A program made the translations under genes and the position numbers. From contig NZ_CP139301.1 of the NCBI RefSeq assembly GCF_034092395.1, positions 1,240,001-1,304,000 of the forward strand: a DNA stretch of 64,000 nucleotides. Direction: 5' to 3'. Every line of letters starts with the position of its first letter. The first letter of the stretch is position 1. Origin of the DNA: Prochlorococcus sp. MIT 1307. GTDB lineage: Bacteria > Cyanobacteriota > Cyanobacteriia > PCC-6307 > Cyanobiaceae. The notes below the pieces were generated by a model that saw nothing but the letters and a program-made list of their open reading frames with translations, was not told the DNA's origin and did not search any database. Shown in pieces: positions 11,496 through 49,013 of this stretch.

Positions 11496-12359
11496 ATGCT
11501 CAATAGTTTACTAAGATTAGCTTTAGAAACTAAAGTAAAGGTCAATTATTACTTTTCCAATATATATTATCCATGGAAGACATATAAGAAATCATCTATC
11601 GATAACGCATTTTACAATGATGACAAACTAAGATATCGCAATTACTCTTCTAAAGATAAGTTTATAAATTTAGGAGCTGGTTCAACTTTCTATCATCCAA
11701 GATGGACTTGCTTAGATTTCTATAAAAATGGAATGAACAAAATCTTCCCGAATTATATTCCATGGGACTTTACACTTGAAAAACCTCTTCCAGGTTTATA
11801 TAAGCTTGTATATTGTTCTCATGTATTTGAACATATACCCAAACAGTCAAGTGAAAAGTTTATAGATAATATATTTAATTCAATGCAGCCAGGAGGTATC
11901 TTGAGAATGACTCTACCAGATGCTGACTTAGGCTACGAAGCTTACTCTGAAGGAAGATATGATGTTCTACAAATTTGGGAAAATAAGATTGCTAAAAGTG
12001 GTATTAATGTTGATAAAGAATATTATTTTGAATTTCTTCTCTTACATTGTTTTGCTACATCTAAAACATGGGAGTTCACTCCTGCTCTTGCTAAAAGCAT
12101 TCGTAAAGCTCACAAAATCTTGAGCAAAAGTGAGTTTCTTGATTTGTTGATTTCAGGAATAAATAGTAATGTTGAGGATGGGCAAGACCATGTCAACTGG
12201 TTTAATTATACTAAGCTGGAGAAATTACTTATAGATAAAGGTTTTTCTAAAGTTTATAGAAGTGCATATGGCCAATCTAAAAGTCCAGCAATGAGAGATG
12301 TTCCTTTGTTCGATGAGTTTATACCATGTATGACTCTTTATATAGAGGCAGTAAAATAA
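11496..12359 (+). CDS. Class I SAM-dependent methyltransferase (predicted)
   Basis: 287 residues. The glycine-rich cofactor loop FINLGAGST lies at 57-64, an acidic residue follows in TCLDFY, the motif LVYCSHVFEHIP (near 105-117) matches the post-II motif of type-11/SAM methyltransferases, and GGILRMTLPDADLGYEAY follows. The C-terminus has the block SKSPAMRDVPLF that is shared with the next gene. Bacterial enzymes of this type often modify sugars, lipids or O-antigen parts; the substrate is unknown here. It is followed by its paralogue after 68 bases. Base composition is lower in G+C than the core genes, fitting an accessory region. Confidence 0.75.
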   Translation: MLNSLLRLALETKVKVNYYFSNIYYPWKTYKKSSIDNAFYNDDKLRYRNYSSKDKFINLGAGSTFYHPRWTCLDFYKNGMNKIFPNYIPWDFTLEKPLPGLYKLVYCSHVFEHIPKQSSEKFIDNIFNSMQPGGILRMTLPDADLGYEAYSEGRYDVLQIWENKIAKSGINVDKEYYFEFLLLHCFATSKTWEFTPALAKSIRKAHKILSKSEFLDLLISGINSNVEDGQDHVNWFNYTKLEKLLIDKGFSKVYRSAYGQSKSPAMRDVPLFDEFIPCMTLYIEAVK

Positions 12360-12427
12360 ACTAAAGTTGAATTTCACCTAACAGATCAATCAAGTAACAT
12401 GTTAAAATTAATAAAAATAAAGCCAAA

Positions 12428-13291
12428 ATGTTAAATATTCTAAGCAGAGAATTAATTAAAAGAAAAGCAAAGATACTAGCTAATTTTTTCTTTGATAAGA
12501 TAATGCCATACAAGCGTTTGCGCAAATTTTCTATAGATCGCTGGATTTATAGAAATGAGTCTGATAGGTATAAACTCTATAAAAGTAAGGATCATTATAT
12601 AAATATAGCTCCAGATAATAATTTTTATCATCCCAAATGGGACTGTCTAGTGCCTTATTCTGATAAGAGGCATAAATTTCTATCTAGTTATTTAGAATAT
12701 AATTTCTCAAACATACAAGAATTTCCAAATACCTATAAATTGGCATATTCTTCTCATTTTCTTCAATTAATTCCTCATGCATTATTAGAGTCACTTTTAG
12801 GTCATATTTATGAGGCATTATCCAGCCAAGGAATTTTTAGGGTAGTTGTACCAGATGCAGATCTTGCCTATGAAGCATATAAGGAAAAGAGAATAGATTT
12901 CTTTGAAATTATCTCACCTAGAAAATATTCATTCGAAAAGAATGAATATTTTTTTGAAATAATGATTACTTCATTTATTTCAGGAAATAAACCCAATAAT
13001 TTAAAGATTGATTCGAAGACAGGAAGCACAATTAGGAAAGCGTATAAAGAAATGAATAAGGAAAGATTTTTTGATTTTTTGATTGATTTAATTAGTTCTC
13101 AAGTCAAAAGTTCAACAAGTAATATGAATTGGCTTAACTATACCAAGCTATATGATTATTTAAGCAACGCTGGCTTCTCAACAGTCTACAAAAGTAGGTT
13201 CGGACAGTCCAAAAGTCCTGCGATGAGAGATATACCATTATTTGATGCGAAGCTTCCATGTTTTAGTCTCTATATAGAAGCTTCAAAATAA
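12428..13291 (+). CDS. Methyltransferase-like paralogue with a degenerate cofactor loop
   Basis: This gene has exactly the same length (287 residues) as its upstream neighbour and aligns to it along the whole length: YHPKWDCL, PDADLAYEAY, NWLNYTKLYDYL and FGQSKSPAMRDIPLFD all have counterparts. The positions that bind S-adenosylmethionine differ: LGAGST (59-64) is IAPDNN here, and CSHVFEHIP is SSHFLQLIP. The frame is intact, so it is not a pseudogene by sequence. It has probably lost catalysis, or serves as a partner subunit or has a new function. It arose by tandem duplication. Confidence 0.7.
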   Translation: MLNILSRELIKRKAKILANFFFDKIMPYKRLRKFSIDRWIYRNESDRYKLYKSKDHYINIAPDNNFYHPKWDCLVPYSDKRHKFLSSYLEYNFSNIQEFPNTYKLAYSSHFLQLIPHALLESLLGHIYEALSSQGIFRVVVPDADLAYEAYKEKRIDFFEIISPRKYSFEKNEYFFEIMITSFISGNKPNNLKIDSKTGSTIRKAYKEMNKERFFDFLIDLISSQVKSSTSNMNWLNYTKLYDYLSNAGFSTVYKSRFGQSKSPAMRDIPLFDAKLPCFSLYIEASK

Positions 13292-13670: not shown

Positions 13671-13785
13671 CTGAAAGTCTATTAAATAATGACTATAAGT
13701 TTCTCATACATCTCCTCGTTAACCTTACTCAGGAAAAGAAATACATGAATATGTTAAAACAAGTAGTATAAAAGCGGTTTATTAC

Positions 13786-13860
13786 AAATAAATAAGCCTC
13801 AAACCCCTTGCAGAACAAGGGATTTCCATCAAGTTGTATAGTCGGCATTTATGTGTACAT
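13786..13860 (-). repeat. argJ-3'-end repeat, copy 1 (distal attachment-site remnant)
   Basis: Bases 13833-13860 match the end of argJ (17705-17732) at 26 of 28 positions. Read on the minus strand, this copy encodes YVHINADYTT followed by TGA, the same ten residues that end ArgJ (whose stop is TAA). The differences inside the codons are synonymous (ATC/ATA, GAT/GAC, ACG/ACT). To the left lie a CCCTTG-5-CAAGGG hairpin and AATAAATAAGCCTC, shared almost exactly with copy 2 at 15054-15120. A GGTATA-like element at 13765-13782 sits where the argJ copy has one. This is the outer boundary of the island. Confidence 0.88.
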
Positions 13861-13965
13861 AAGAGCAAAATCAAGGCTATTACTGGGTTATCAATTGATT
13901 GACAGGCGGTATTTCGCGGTATAAATATTTTCTGGGAGCTCAAAACCCAGTTATTGCAATACCGC

Positions 13966-13982
13966 GGTATAAAAGCGGTATA
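13966..13982 (+). repeat. GGTATA-pair motif in module 1
   Basis: GGTATAAAAGCGGTATA: two GGTATA hexamers 11 bases apart, preceded by CAAAACCCAG at 13941-13950. A related, poorer pair occurs at 13906-13924. The same arrangement (AAAACCCAG, then the pair) recurs in module 4 at 16973-17017 and the pair beside argJ at 17636-17653. The one-turn spacing of hexamers is what a DNA-binding protein's arm sites would look like. Confidence 0.6.
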
Positions 13983-14000
13983 AAACGATTAAGAATAAAA

Positions 14001-14675
14001 CTAAAAGCGATATCTAAGGCCTGTAAACATTGCAATTTTTTCAAAGCCATCCTGTTTATAACTATTGTGGTTAGCTGTATGTACGTTCTGTCCTATTCTA
14101 AAGTTATCAGTAACTTCATAGCTTAATTCAGTATAAATTTCAGATCTCTGATTTAATTCATATGTTGCTCCAATTATTAACTGTTGACTATCCATATCGG
14201 TTGTGTGGATTTTTGTTGTATCCCCAGCAGCTGTACCTCCTTTATTTTTATATGTAGATTTTCCATAGCCATATCCAACATAAGGTGAAAGTTTAGAGTT
14301 GGAATTAAAGTCGTAAAAAGCACGAATTGACTTTGTAGTTAAGTCTAAATCTCCAGTAGCCGTTGAATCTGCTCCGTTTTGACTATAGTCTTCATATTCA
14401 AAAGTGTCTTTCCCATATTCAAATTCGGTTCTTATATTTCCAAAGTCATAACCAACTCCAAATTTAAACTGCCAATCATTGCTTTCATATTCCCAATTAC
14501 CAAAGACATCAGAAGAATCAAAATTGATTTCACTTGATTGATAATGAGCCTTGCCTATACCAGAAGACAAGTAAAAACCTTTTCTGGTATTACTCTCCTC
14601 AGCTAATGCAGGATTCACAATGCAAGTACAAGAGATAATACCAGCGCAAATGAAACGACTAGCCTGATTTTTCAC
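14001..14675 (-). CDS. Outer-membrane beta-barrel protein (module 1 cargo)
   Basis: 224 residues with a signal peptide (about 1-26, ending NPALA before EES). The mature part alternates polar and hydrophobic residues as in an eight-strand porin-like or Opa/OmpX-type barrel: GFYLSSGIGKAHY, FKFGVGYDFGNIRTEFEY, IRAFYDFN, LSPYVGYGYG, QLIIGATYELN. It ends in RYRF, the terminal phenylalanine used for barrel insertion by the BAM machinery. YDFGNIRTE and the RYRF end are shared with the gene at 15354, so the two are paralogues carried by adjacent modules. A surface role (adhesion, phage receptor, small-solute passage) is possible; no specific function can be assigned. Confidence 0.8.
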   Translation of the reverse strand: MKNQASRFICAGIISCTCIVNPALAEESNTRKGFYLSSGIGKAHYQSSEINFDSSDVFGNWEYESNDWQFKFGVGYDFGNIRTEFEYGKDTFEYEDYSQNGADSTATGDLDLTTKSIRAFYDFNSNSKLSPYVGYGYGKSTYKNKGGTAAGDTTKIHTTDMDSQQLIIGATYELNQRSEIYTELSYEVTDNFRIGQNVHTANHNSYKQDGFEKIAMFTGLRYRF

Positions 14676-15353
14676 TTACAATTTCAACAATTTCAAGTAT
14701 CAATTTACACAAGGCTTAAGGAATGGAAAGAATTCGAAGGCCACTAATCTCAGCGTCCCTTCGGATTAATATTAAAAAATTTTAGCTTTAAAGAGCCTAC
14801 TAATTATCCATTTAATTAAGCTTCAAGCTTATGCAACTAATTTATTTCGTGAAATTAGAGAACTGCTCATATATAAAATTAAACTCAAAAGTTAAAGTTT
14901 ATTTTTAGAAGGCCTAAAAGCATTACAGAATCATGGGCGACACTTTCCAGAGTCGAAATATTAAAAGCAGCTAGATCAATTTGTGTTAAGATGATCAAAT
15001 ATTATTGAGAAAATAATATGTTCGAATCCAGTTGTGTGAGCGCGGTATATTATAAATAAATAAGCCTCAAACCCCTTGCAGGACAAGGGATTTCAATCAA
15101 GTTGTATAGTCGGCATTTATACAGATCTTTTGGATGTGTAATACAAACCTTTTTTAGAAGTCAGTCATACCAAGTCATTGGGAGCACAGAAAACAAGGGA
15201 TATTTATCACACAGTTGTCACAGTGGGCATTCAGTGTTGTCACACTTGCGGAATGAGACGAACCATACATTGCATTAGAAAACCAGTTCAATCATTGACC
15301 ACTAGAATATCTAAAGCATCTAGGAGACAATCGATTGTTAGTAAATTTTAGAG
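14676..15353. other. Gene-free junction between modules 1 and 2
   Basis: About 680 bases with no credible gene. It holds argJ-end repeat copy 2 (15054-15120) and, near 15206-15250, a cluster of TCACA and TTGTCACA motifs. Within that cluster the bases around 15218-15240 resemble a further, degenerate argJ-end core (GGGCATT in place of CGGCATT). Promoters for the two divergent barrel genes should also be here. Confidence 0.5.
15054..15120 (-). repeat. argJ-3'-end repeat, copy 2
   Basis: These 67 bases match 13786-13852 at all but two positions; the copies are 1,268 bases apart. The right part (15101-15120) reads INADYTT plus TGA on the minus strand; the left part has the CCCTTG-CAGGA-CAAGGG hairpin. 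Similarity stops abruptly after GGCATTTAT. Near-identity of copies 1 and 2 indicates that module 1 inserted recently or was kept uniform by recombination. Confidence 0.88.
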
Positions 15354-16055
15354 ATGTCAATTACAAGCAAAGTTGTCTCTTTGTGCACAGGAATATTTCT
15401 AACCACAACTGCAAGTCCAACACTCGCAGATGTCCTGCCGTCTAATGGAAGTGCTAACAAAGATGATGATAAAGGTTTTTATTTAACTGTCGGTGTCGGT
15501 TATCATCATCTTCAGAACGAAAAAGCAAAAGCAGGTCCGGATAGTTCAGTAACTGAGGGTGAAACAATAATCGATCAGTTTGATGGAGGTTATGGAATAG
15601 AAACTGGTCTTGGTTATGATTTTGGAAACATTAGAACAGAACTAACTTACAAATTAATCGACAATGAATTAAAAAGCGCTTATCTAGGCAACCTCGGAAG
15701 CACAACATCAGCAAGTGGTTCTGTTGATGCTCATTTATATCTGCTCAGTGCTTATTACGACCTCAAAACCTCCTCTCGTATTAAACCTTATTTTGGCGGC
15801 GGTTTGGGGTTTGGTAATCTTGTGATCAGAGACATTACTGAAACAACATCTAGCGGAACACTCACTACTGCTGATGATGATGTTGATGTTTTTGCTTATC
15901 ACGGCAAAATTGGTGCTTCTTATCTCGCAAACGAAAAAACTGATATTTTTCTTGAGGGTGTAATTACACGAACAGATGAATTCAAGTATGCCTCAAATTC
16001 TTACGATCCTTTGACAGATATCGGAGTTAATTTAGGCATAAGATATCGTTTTTAA
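15354..16055 (+). CDS. Outer-membrane beta-barrel protein (module 2 cargo)
   Basis: 233 residues with a signal peptide (about 1-25, ending SPTLA before DVL). Barrel-like strands alternate along the mature protein (GFYLTVGVGYHHL, GIETGLGYDFGNIRTELTY, HLYLLSAYYDL, IKPYFGGGLGFGN, GKIGASYLANEKTDIFLEG) and the C-terminus is GIRYRF. It shares YDFGNIRTE and the RYRF end with the barrel at 14001-14675, but the rest has diverged, so this is an old duplication or two related elements. It is transcribed opposite to the other cargo genes. The loops between strands are Asp/Ser/Thr-rich, as exposed loops usually are. Exact function unknown. Confidence 0.8.
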   Translation: MSITSKVVSLCTGIFLTTTASPTLADVLPSNGSANKDDDKGFYLTVGVGYHHLQNEKAKAGPDSSVTEGETIIDQFDGGYGIETGLGYDFGNIRTELTYKLIDNELKSAYLGNLGSTTSASGSVDAHLYLLSAYYDLKTSSRIKPYFGGGLGFGNLVIRDITETTSSGTLTTADDDVDVFAYHGKIGASYLANEKTDIFLEGVITRTDEFKYASNSYDPLTDIGVNLGIRYRF

Positions 16056-16090
16056 AAGCATTCTGGGTTATAAAAAGGTGAGCATTAATA

Positions 16091-16204
16091 TCACATAGTT
16101 GTCACATTTACTAAAGGTGCGTATAAAAAATAAACAACTATTTAGTCCTGCCAGTGGATTTGGGTTGTCACACTATTAGGTTGTGTAATCGGCATTTATA
16201 TACA
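16091..16204 (-). repeat. argJ-3'-end repeat, copy 3, with TCACA-type arm
   Basis: The core at 16180-16204 reads YINADYTT plus TAA on the minus strand. On its left is a roughly 100-base arm: TCACA, GTCACA at 16101-16106, then TGCGTAT, and TTGTCACACT just before the core. Copy 4 has the same arm motifs, with TCACA the same 98 bases from TCGGCATT. To the right, 16225-16245 holds a decayed AAACCCCTTGCC element and 16270-16320 has three further AATCACA motifs. Confidence 0.75.
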
Positions 16205-16348
16205 ACATTCGCTTTTTTGATATACAACATCCTTTAAACCCCTTGCCACTACTCGAGTAGAGACAATAGGAAATAATCACATAATAATCACACTGAGTCA
16301 AAAAATAATCACATAAACTTTTTGAGATGCTTCGTTTTCACAAAAGAA

Positions 16349-16621
16349 TTAATAACAAGATGTTGTTCCTAGAAATTCATTGTGAGAACATGTCTCAGAA
16401 TAAGAACTTCCACCAACAGTACCTGTTGTTGTAGTCGTGCCAAGAAACTCATTATGAGTAGTAGTTGTATTTACGCTCTGTCCATTGATTGATCCAGAAC
16501 AAGATGTTGTTCCTAGAAAGTCATTATGAGAACATGTATACCCTGCATAAGCAGAAGGAATTATGCCCATAATTCCAACAATAGAAATGCTTGATGCAAA
16601 AAATAATTTAAAGGGAGTCAT
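16349..16621 (-). CDS. Small secreted protein with HN(D/E)FLGTT repeats (module 3 cargo)
   Basis: 90 residues. A signal peptide (about 1-26, ending SAYA) is followed by a mature peptide of roughly 64 residues built from three copies of a short unit: CSHNDFLGTTSC, THNEFLGTTTT and CSHNEFLGTTSC, with Gly/Ser/Thr-rich linkers. Four of the five mature cysteines sit at the edges of the first and last units, so one or two disulfides could close the molecule. The underlying DNA of the units is also repeated (AGAAATTCATTGTGAGAAC-like). I know no family with this motif. Secretion across the inner membrane is likely; function could be surface-associated, signalling or toxin-like, all speculative. Confidence 0.7.
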   Translation of the reverse strand: MTPFKLFFASSISIVGIMGIIPSAYAGYTCSHNDFLGTTSCSGSINGQSVNTTTTHNEFLGTTTTTGTVGGSSYSETCSHNEFLGTTSCY

Positions 16622-16704
16622 GGAATTAACTTAATTACACCTTCTTATAGTTCTAGGTATCAATTGGTGATTCCAATGAGGAATAGAATTCCAATTAATC
16701 AAAA

Positions 16705-16744
16705 ATTTCTATAGGGGTGAATATGTATTCACCCCTATAGAAAT
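16705..16744 (-). terminator. Perfect 19-bp inverted repeat with 2-base centre
   Basis: Bases 16705-16723 are the exact reverse complement of 16726-16744, around a central TG. On the minus strand the hairpin is followed by TTTTT, which makes it a strong intrinsic terminator candidate for leftward transcription from module 4 or argJ. A stem this long and perfect is unusual for a terminator and could also be a recombination or protein-binding site. Confidence 0.6.
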
Positions 16745-16774
16745 ATATAAATCACGCTCTGGAAAGAAGAAAAA

Positions 16775-16889
16775 TCACAAAATGGTCGCACTCTTTCTAG
16801 ATGCGTATTACACACCCTCCAAAACCACTGCATATAAAAGGAACTTAGACAATCACACTTTAAGTAGTGTAGTCGGCATTGATGTTGAT
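16775..16889 (-). repeat. argJ-3'-end repeat, copy 4, with TCACA-type arm
   Basis: The core at 16864-16889 reads YININ-ADYTT plus TAA on the minus strand, with codons GAC TAC ACT ACT instead of argJ's GAT TAT ACA ACG. The left arm (TCACA at 16775, GTCGCA, TGCGTAT, then AATCACACT before the core) parallels copy 3, with TCACA 98 bases before TCGGCATT in both. Confidence 0.78.
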
Positions 16890-16939
16890 ATAGACACTAA
16901 AACCCAGTGACAGCAATGGATCTCAGGAAGTGAATTACC

Positions 16940-17017
16940 GGTATATTGGTGGTATATCGTCTTCTCAGTCGCTGAAAACCCAGTCATAGAAGAACTACCG
17001 GTATAAAAGTGGTATAT
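16940..17017 (+). repeat. Two GGTATA-pair motifs in module 4
   Basis: GGTATATTGGTGGTATAT at 16940-16957 and GGTATAAAAGTGGTATAT at 17000-17017, 60 bases apart. Each is preceded by CCAAAACCCAG-like sequence (AAAACCCAGTGA at 16900 and AAAACCCAGTCA at 16975). The second is identical to the pair beside argJ (17636-17653). An open frame across this area is an artefact of the repeats. Confidence 0.65.
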
Positions 17018-17167
17018 GAGCAACTCATGTAGATAACAATTAAGAAAGGATATTTCTCTTAGATAAACATCAATAAAGAAACACAATTATTTGAAGCAAT
17101 CAAAATAGAAACAAGAACAAATTACCATAAAGAGAATTCGAGACCTTTGTTGATATTTGATCAATCT

Positions 17168-17560
17168 TTAATATGTACCTGGGCAGTAAGTAGGGAAAAG
17201 TTGCTTATCTGCTGTATACCGAACAACCATGTCTATATTTTTATTATTTAGATTCTCTTGAATTTTTTGATTCAAATAATCCATATAACTTCTACCTAAA
17301 GTTTGATTAGATTGTTTTGCTCTATAGCACATAGCATTTATTGCAGTAGGACTATTTCTTATATTATTTATTTCCATATTGAGTACTTCTTGGAAACTCT
17401 TAAACCCTGGACCTGGAGATGGTAGGACAACTTTAGGAGTTACTTGTACTCGAGGCGAGGGTTGGTAAGACTTTTCTGATGGAAACAAGCGCCATAATAA
17501 AGCGATGACAAACAACGTCCAACAAACTGTCATGACAGGGTTTTGTTTTTGATCAGTCAA
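17168..17560 (-). CDS. Membrane-anchored or secreted unknown (module 4 cargo)
   Basis: 130 residues. A single hydrophobic segment at about 9-25 (VMTVCWTLFVIALLWRLF) is followed by a proline-rich linker (PSPRVQVTPKVVLPSPGPG) and a C-terminal domain of about 80 residues with two cysteines (AMCYRAKQ and FPTYCPG). The likely topology is an N-terminal anchor with the domain outside the cytoplasm. The C-terminal domain, with spaced Asn/Tyr and helical segments (SYMDYLNQKIQENL), is not one I recognise. It is the only gene between repeat copy 4 and argJ, so by the accretion model it belongs to the latest insertion. Confidence 0.65.
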   Translation of the reverse strand: MTDQKQNPVMTVCWTLFVIALLWRLFPSEKSYQPSPRVQVTPKVVLPSPGPGFKSFQEVLNMEINNIRNSPTAINAMCYRAKQSNQTLGRSYMDYLNQKIQENLNNKNIDMVVRYTADKQLFPTYCPGTY

Positions 17561-17635
17561 ATTCTCACTCGCTATTTTTTTATTTTAATGCGTCCAATAA
17601 AGAAATCTACCTAAAAAAGCACAAGCAACAAAATC

Positions 17636-17732
17636 GGTATAAAAGTGGTATATTGAAAACATTAATCCTTCAAAACCCTTTCAGCACAGGGGATCTGGGG
17701 TTACGTTGTATAATCGGCATTGATGTGTACAT
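17636..17732 (-). repeat. Functional argJ 3' end and adjacent repeat elements (attachment-site candidate)
   Basis: This unit contains the true argJ terminus (codons for YVHINADYTT, TAA at 17701-17703) and, beyond the stop, AGATCCCCTGTGCTGAAAGGG and a GGTATA pair (17636-17653). All parts have counterparts in the copy at 13765-13860. The CCCCT...AGGGG part may also act as the argJ terminator on the minus strand. Confidence 0.8.
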
Positions 17733-18957
17733 ATTCCTCTGATAAATCACACCCCCACACCGTCGCAACTCCAAGGCCATTTCCTACTTTTAAACAAATT
17801 GATATTGAATCATCCCTCAAATACGCTCCCTCCTTACGTTCTTTCATATAAGCAGATGCTGCAGTTCGATCAAATGCCAAAGGCTCTCCATCTTGAATTA
17901 ACTGATAGGAACCAATCCACAAAGAAAGTGCCTTTTGAGGAAAATAGACTCCCGCTCTACCTGCTGCTGCAACTATCCGGCCCCAATTTGGATCACTACC
18001 ATGAATAGCTGTCTTAACTAAAGCAGAGCTACAAATAGTACGAGCAATTATGCGAGCCTCAGAATCAGTCTCAGTACCAAGGATTTTGACCTCTAATAAA
18101 CAATTAGCTCCTTCACCATCTCTCGCAATTGCCCTAGCTAAATATTGTGATGTTAATGTTAATCCAACTTCCAAAGTCTCTAAATGCTCACGAGGCAATG
18201 GAGAGCCAGCCGCAAAAGCAAGGAAAGCATCATTAGTACTAGTGTCTCCATCAACAGTTATCGAATTAAAGGACCGGTCGACCACTCTTTCTATCATTGC
18301 CGACCACAAATCTGAAGAGATCCCTACATCACAACTAAGGTAACCGAGCATTGTCGCCATATTGGGATGAATCATGCCAGATCCTTTAGCCATACCCCCA
18401 ATTCGTACACATCGACCATCTAAATAGGCTTCATAAGCAATTTGCTTCTCTACTAAATCAGTAGTCAATATGGCATTAGCAGCGGCAGAGCCCCCAAGAT
18501 CACTCAGCTCTTGCACAAGCCTCTCTAGGCCTAAAAGTAAGGTCTCAAGAGGTATTGATTCACCTATGACACCAGTCGAGCAAATCAAAACCTCTTCTGA
18601 CGTCACCCCAAGCAGCTCAGCAAGAGCATCGGTTGCACGCACACTATCTATCAAGCCACGTTTGCCAGTACAAGCATTTGCTTGCCCTGAATTAATTAAA
18701 ACGGCTCGTGCATGTCCAAGATTTGCCTTCAAACGATCAATACATAGATCAATGCAAGCAGCTCGCACAAAAGACTTGGTAAAAGTTCCTGCACAAACAG
18801 CACCCTCAGGAGCAAGCAATAAAGCCAAATCTGGTTTGCCTGAAGTTTTCAAGCCTGCTTTAATACCAGACGCTTTAAAACCACTGGGAGTAGTTATTCC
18901 ACCGGAGATGGGAGACCATAAAGAAGTGGTGGAATGGCTCAAATTTTCCAAAAGCAA
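17701..18957 (-). CDS. argJ: Bifunctional ornithine acetyltransferase / N-acetylglutamate synthase
   Basis: ArgJ moves the acetyl group from N-acetylornithine to glutamate and so recycles it in arginine synthesis. The 418-residue protein is normal length; the self-cleavage region KGSGMIHPNMATMLGY carries the nucleophilic threonine, and the C-terminus is the family's invariant INADYTT. The start is a TTG at 18957, backed by AAGGAAGG six bases upstream on the minus strand. The gene is head-to-head with coaE and its ribosome-binding site lies in the coaE leader or 5' coding region. The 3' end is the apparent target of repeated insertions. The coding sequence itself is intact, so insertions preserved function. 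Confidence 0.96.
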   Translation of the reverse strand: MLLENLSHSTTSLWSPISGGITTPSGFKASGIKAGLKTSGKPDLALLLAPEGAVCAGTFTKSFVRAACIDLCIDRLKANLGHARAVLINSGQANACTGKRGLIDSVRATDALAELLGVTSEEVLICSTGVIGESIPLETLLLGLERLVQELSDLGGSAAANAILTTDLVEKQIAYEAYLDGRCVRIGGMAKGSGMIHPNMATMLGYLSCDVGISSDLWSAMIERVVDRSFNSITVDGDTSTNDAFLAFAAGSPLPREHLETLEVGLTLTSQYLARAIARDGEGANCLLEVKILGTETDSEARIIARTICSSALVKTAIHGSDPNWGRIVAAAGRAGVYFPQKALSLWIGSYQLIQDGEPLAFDRTAASAYMKERKEGAYLRDDSISICLKVGNGLGVATVWGCDLSEEYVHINADYTT

Positions 18958-48941: not shown

Positions 48942-49013
48942 GCGGGTGTAATTCAGCGGTAGAATGTCAGCTTCCCAAGCTGAACGTCGCCGGTTCGAGT
49001 CCGGTCACCCGCT
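48942..49013 (+). tRNA. tRNA-Gly (anticodon CCC)
   Basis: Cloverleaf: acceptor GCGGGTG pairs with CACCCGC at 49006-49012; discriminator T. The anticodon arm TCAGC-TTCCCAA-GCTGA gives anticodon CCC, which reads GGG. The T arm is CCGG-TTCGAGT-CCGG. No CCA is encoded. I see no copy of its 3' end elsewhere, so this tRNA does not appear to be an integration site here. Confidence 0.95.

Follow-up and report, generated by a model that had tools for sequence, protein, structure and literature searches.

The 1268-bp unit here called W4, which lies in a 64,000-nt stretch of DNA (the window), is with a probability of about 0.85 a mobile gene cassette of the integrase type that is non-autonomous and sits at the argJ 3' end, where it is the outermost complete one of four in tandem. 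No integrase gene was found inside any of the four units (W1–W4), and the units of the window are classed as non-autonomous only. The argument is built from the argJ-derived cores, the matched ends of the elements, the exchange of cargo between species, and the integrases found beside the same core in related genomes.

The argJ-end cores and the cassette array

The core, 24 nt in all, duplicates the argJ 3' end, with its last seven codons (INADYTT) and the stop. The complete 2.03-Mb genome was searched with the core motif RTNAATGCCGAYTAYACNACNTRR, allowing 3 mismatches, and exactly five copies were obtained, all perfect, all on the minus strand, and all within 3.9 kb at the argJ locus. No core was found elsewhere in the genome at ≤3 mismatches, and the reversed control pattern gave 2 matches. 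All five cores translate as INADYTT followed by a stop, as expected if each inserted element supplies a replacement argJ end, and only the copy at 17701–17724 belongs to argJ. Direct repeats of the target-gene end are present at both ends of the elements and the end of argJ is restored, as in site-specific integrative elements. Between the cores, four complete units of 841 (W1), 684 (W2), 1079 (W3), and 1268 bp (W4) follow one another in tandem, with one gene each (Table 1); no further core was found left of 13829 in a search of the window.

Table 1. Features of the argJ locus in the window
Feature	Positions	Strand	Basis or remark
argJ, target gene; its 3' end is the attachment site	17701–18957	-	ORF of 418 aa; orthologs in 55/60 relatives
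Core copy 1, true argJ 3' end, ATCAATGCCGATTATACAACGTAA, INADYTT stop	17701–17724	-	Genome motif search
Core copy 2, INADYTT stop	16860–16883	-	Genome motif search
Core copy 3, INADYTT stop	16176–16199	-	Genome motif search
Core copy 4, INADYTT stop, right end of W4	15097–15120	-	Genome motif search
Core copy 5, INADYTT stop, left end of W4	13829–13852	-	Genome motif search
W1, 841 bp, type A ends; repeat pairs 16940–16955, 17000–17015, 17636–17651	16860–17724	-	Sequence pattern
W1 cargo, 130-aa protein, family unassigned	17168–17560	-	ORF; no Pfam match
W2, 684 bp, type B ends; repeat pair 16276–16292	16176–16883	-	End common to a G004 unit
W2 cargo, 90 aa, HNEFLGTT repeats, likely signal peptide	16349–16621	-	ORF; no Pfam family above cut-off
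W3, 1079 bp, type B (TGTGAY) ends; repeat pairs 15206–15222 and 16090–16106	15097–16199	-	Sequence pattern
W3 cargo, 233-aa outer-membrane beta-barrel protein	15354–16055	+	Pfam OMP_b-brl, 6.1e-10
W4, 1268-bp cassette, both cores included, type A (ATACCRC) ends	13829–15120	-	Ends shared with the G001 and G002 units
W4 cargo, 224-aa outer-membrane beta-barrel protein	14001–14675	-	Pfam OMP_b-brl, 9.7e-13
W4 distal arm-like repeat pair ATACCGC..ATACC	13908–13922	-	Sequence pattern
W4 distal arm-like repeat pair ATACCGC..ATACC	13966–13981	-	Sequence pattern
W4 proximal arm-like repeat ATACCGC, single, argJ-side	15042–15048	-	Read from the sequence
argJ-side end structure of an incomplete fifth, type A element	13757–13828	-	89% similar to the 15025–15096 side of W4

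The sequence-only reading had singled out a pair of 67-nt direct repeats, and these (13786–13852 and 15054–15120, spaced by 1268 bp) are indeed identical at 65 of 67 positions, differing solely at 13814 (A/G) and 13827 (C/A). The runner-up among ungapped 67-mer direct pairs in the window, at distances below 20 kb, matched at 53/67. The single gene that was placed between the repeats, and its assignment as an outer-membrane barrel, were both borne out (Table 1), as was the argJ-end core within the repeats, which forms the last 24 nt of each copy and is the functional part. The 1268-bp stretch also holds up as a discrete one-gene unit of recombination, and exchange between the repeats would take out exactly that unit. 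The crossover region is expected to be the 24-nt core rather than the full 67 nt. Leftward of the repeats, 89% similarity was retained over 96 nt (13757–13852 against 15025–15120). In the left-hand 67-mer, a core is joined to the argJ-side end structure belonging to one more element, which is no longer complete, and the repeat reaches past the core because this type A end structure stands next to it. What had been left undeveloped is that the core occurs five times in register, which makes the 1268-bp unit one of four.

Two of the earlier proposals fared less well. The near-identity of the flanks had been read as a mark of recent insertion or gene conversion, which was unsupported: over 130 nt, the right flank has 92% identity with its homologue in another species, while the argJ identity between the two is only about 70%. 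Because of this difference, the likeness of the flanks is attributed to attachment-site structure that accompanies this element type, and, as judged from these alignments, their near-identity by itself is no sign of recent insertion. The proposed CCCTTG hairpin is present as an imperfect dyad, but RNAalifold on 17 arms found no conserved RNA structure in relatives. A Rfam scan of the window returned only a tRNA, and an RNA element was rejected.

Several further features of the array were recorded. In W2, an inverted repeat with perfect 19-nt arms separated by 2 nt lies at 16705–16744, upstream of the 90-aa gene. The small secreted HNEFLGTT repeat protein of W2 is alike in design to a DSYGGTSG repeat protein of another genome (element G20a, L051); each is the only cargo of a small type B cassette. 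Relatives of the barrel cargo were found in 65 of 241 genomes, mostly away from argJ, and the barrel is not a marker of the argJ locus. Between the array and the conserved flank, in a variable stretch at 11496–13291, two tandem 287-aa methyltransferase-like genes are 41% identical to each other; such genes lie behind argJ in other genomes too.

Matched ends, exchanged cargo, and movement between species

Inside the cores, short direct repeats spaced by about 11 nt are present in most elements. The repeat sequence varies between elements and agrees between both ends of one element: paired ends shared 1719 8-mers, versus 759 (sd 74) for re-paired ends, and none of 5000 permutations was as high. 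Four elements (L112, L112b, G1b, and G20c) showed no individual signal of end matching and ranked in the middle; L112 appears composite. From their layout, the end repeats are putative arm-binding sites of an integrase. The array of the window mixes two types, namely ATACCRC (type A; W1 and W4) and TGTGAY (type B; W2 and W3). All 13 of the ATACCRC-end units found were without an integrase, and small type A units in many genomes have a common end geometry.

The comparison set comprised one genome per species, and the argJ proteins of the closest compared species reached identities of about 76% at most. A 1492-bp unit of G001 agrees with W4 at 88% of positions in the first 215 nt and at 93% in the last 173 nt, and no similarity was detected in the interior. 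Likewise, the ends of a 1696-bp unit of G002 matched those of W4 at 83% and 85%, and the interior was unrelated. W4 carries a barrel, the G001 unit a YadA-anchor adhesin, and the G002 unit a TPR protein. As argJ is 70% identical to that of G001 and 75% to that of G002, the W4-type ends show higher identity than the host gene, a difference to which selection on the ends may have contributed. Among the other units, the ends of W1 were 78% and 81% identical to a G001 unit, and the last 147 nt of W3 were 80% identical to a G020 unit.

A search for the paired-ATACCRC pattern matched 10 of 400 genomes, and the matches followed up were all in units bounded by argJ cores, those of the G353 unit having 3 mismatches. 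Four of the matched genomes, each from a different species (loci L149, L150, L128, and L152), carry the same stand-alone cyanase gene. These cassettes were 95.8–98.0% identical pairwise, and the third codon positions of cynS were 96.6–98.6% identical, compared with 69–78% for argJ in the three comparable genomes. On this sequence evidence, the cyanase cassette has clearly moved sideways in four other species, and cross-contamination among the draft genomes appears unlikely given a divergence of 2–4%. Between G340 and G283, homology spans segment 1998–3330, the cores start at 2001 and 3308, and the remaining flanks fail to align as a continuation. The cassette adjoins argJ in one of the two genomes and has cassettes on both sides in the other, and homology stops at the cores. 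Movement as a precise unit was observed for this sister cyanase cassette only, not for W4. G324 has a longer cassette, whose homology sets in within the core boundary and which is therefore no clean copy, and the flanks of G340 and G263 are also homologous because argJ adjoins both. Near-identical cyanase cassettes in four species would make cyanate use a mobile trait.

Integrases at the argJ locus and competing explanations

Further cores were found downstream of argJ in about half of 20 genomes, which were hand-picked and mostly close argJ relatives; nearly all lay on the argJ strand, and some copies had up to 3 mismatches. Beyond the array, the genus conserves a 168-aa gene, three small genes, and then a 351-aa gene that is probably acsF, and across the window's genus the 168-aa gene lies between about 2.5 and 7.4 kb from argJ. 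In Prochlorococcus sp. AG-363-B04 (G035), two consecutive elements each carry a tyrosine-type integrase gene 138–150 nt after a core, and the second has restriction-modification genes as cargo. For the integrase survey, 400 genomes of the family were searched with one argJ-linked integrase and 30 loci were examined, of which 25 had a core near the integrase start; as the searches for integrase loci and cores were seeded with this one integrase and argJ-end motifs, such counts are biased as frequencies. The integrase elements that were fetched run from argJ to one further core over 3.6–11.5 kb, with the integrase beside one end. The enzymes match Phage_integrase (some below the curated cut-off) and, clearly, PHROG integrases, and are far below the NCBIfam cut-offs for the Xer and XerA/integron-integrase models. 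The same 400-genome search found no argJ-linked integrase in the window's genome, and in G020 a truncated 88-aa integrase remnant lies beside a core.

The array would be explained by serial insertion through argJ-linked tyrosine integrases, which related genomes carry on longer elements at this site. Each element would bring the last seven argJ codons and the stop, and insertion would therefore keep argJ intact and recreate the core, making repeated insertion at one place, and stacking, possible. Integration and excision would most likely be performed by this integrase family acting at the argJ core, and W4 should be excisable. The integrase-less cassettes of the window would depend on an integrase supplied in trans. 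Counting against this reading, no argJ-linked integrase was found in the window's genome or in any of the 13 type A units, so that a helper integrase for ATACCRC ends is hypothetical.

Other explanations were weighed against this reading. It is conceivable, though rather doubtful, that the units are immobile relics of once complete elements which lost their integrase genes and were kept or are drifting in place. The lack of an argJ-linked integrase in the window's genome, the integrase remnant in G020, and the incomplete end structure left of 13829 fit such decay; however, integrase-less cassettes with the same end type have moved between species as precise units, and decay of unrelated larger elements would not give small type A units a common end geometry in many genomes. 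Homologous recombination among the repeated ends, which at 150–215 nt are long enough, might instead have shuffled the cargo, and the common ends and different cargo of W4, G1b, and G2a are what exchange of the middle predicts. As a replacement for an integrase this is improbable, since it leaves unexplained why the cores are always argJ ends with integrases beside them, and how a cassette came to occupy different array positions in two genomes with homology ending at the cores; it may act in addition.

Mobilisation by the host's own pyrH-linked tyrosine recombinase, which is widespread in cyanobacteria, is very unlikely. The gene is intact in the window's genome and none of the type A units found carries an integrase, but it was found in 43 of 60 relatives, including other families, and has no link to argJ; moreover, its best alignment with the argJ-linked integrases (E 7e-3 over 68 aa) does not amount to convincing similarity. 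An origin by unequal crossing-over, in which a barrel gene and an intergenic repeat were simply duplicated in tandem, has next to nothing left to recommend it. Although the direct repeats are in tandem and two of the four units have distantly related barrel genes, the unit interiors are without DNA homology beyond the ends, the barrels of W3 and W4 are about 30% identical and in opposite orientation, and integrases occupy the same site in other genomes. As to a vehicle, searches of viral contigs, phages, and plasmids with integrases and cassettes gave nothing relevant; the scans of viral contigs returned no relatives of the argJ-linked integrases, only distant phage integrases. A loose arm pattern did match viral contigs, but among the matches listed, the loci checked had no argJ core and were taken as chance.

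Relation to known systems and significance

Integrons are arrays of mostly single-gene cassettes with varied cargo at one site, served by a tyrosine recombinase, and the argJ array resembles them in each of these respects. Unlike integrons, whose sites were compared by general description, the core here duplicates the end of a host gene, both cassette ends bear arm-like repeats, and any integrase gene is located within an element instead of on a fixed platform. We tentatively suggest, at less than even odds, that the family forms a system parallel to integrons, in which integrase-free, mostly single-gene cassettes with conserved ends and exchanged cargo dock at the argJ 3' end through a recombinase acting in trans. 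If so, an integron-like cassette system would allow small genomes to take up and shed genes singly, with cyanase, adhesins, barrels, and an endonuclease as cargo.

The SCC elements of staphylococci insert at the end of rlmH, which is restored, stack in tandem, include recombinase-less members, and use serine recombinases. The argJ units share the restored 3' end of a protein-coding gene, the stacking, and the recombinase-less members, whereas the argJ-linked enzymes match tyrosine integrase families and not the serine recombinase ccr. With prophages and integrative islands they have in common attL/attR direct repeats, an integrase by one end, and restriction-modification cargo (in the second G035 element), but the argJ units are stacked, single-gene, and alike in their ends, with exchanged cargo. 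The tycheposons of Prochlorococcus (Hackl et al. 2023), as described in PMC10872708, are tRNA-associated elements of 4–200 kb at seven tRNA genes. Like them, the argJ elements are cargo-carrying integrative elements of picocyanobacteria with a tyrosine recombinase; the differences from that description are that the site here is the end of a protein-coding gene and that the units of the window are 0.7–1.3 kb and integrase-less. The only tRNA of the window is at 48942–49013, away from the argJ end, and the units of 0.68–1.27 kb fall below the size range given there, within which some integrase-bearing relatives fall. In the literature searched, no paper was found that treats argJ together with integration sites and genomic islands, although the Hackl et al. 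2023 original may mention argJ; the papers found on argJ and attB concern Staphylococcus.

The proposed system offers a testable mechanism for one-gene-at-a-time gain and loss in marine picocyanobacteria, beyond the tRNA-linked elements already described. The cargo includes traits that face nutrients and phages, such as cyanase (nitrogen acquisition), barrels, YadA-type adhesins, and an SRA-HNH endonuclease. As the site is fixed, a simple survey would be to read the sequence behind argJ in any picocyanobacterial genome or metagenome.

Besides the pyrH-linked enzyme, two other tyrosine recombinases in the window's genome flank a tRNA-Ser gene, which lies between divergent 372- and 384-aa tyrosine-recombinase-like genes (L289:5283–8010; G000:C1, ~603.3–606.0 kb). 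In a BLAST comparison, one of them had no significant match to the argJ-linked family. This site adjoins duplicated small nuclease-like and 425–428-aa genes and resembles a tRNA-linked, tycheposon-type site. Two near-identical fragments (90–108 aa) of another tyrosine recombinase were also found about 17 kb apart (L039:1474–1800 and L040:1432–1704; G000:C1, ~97.8 and 80.8 kb).
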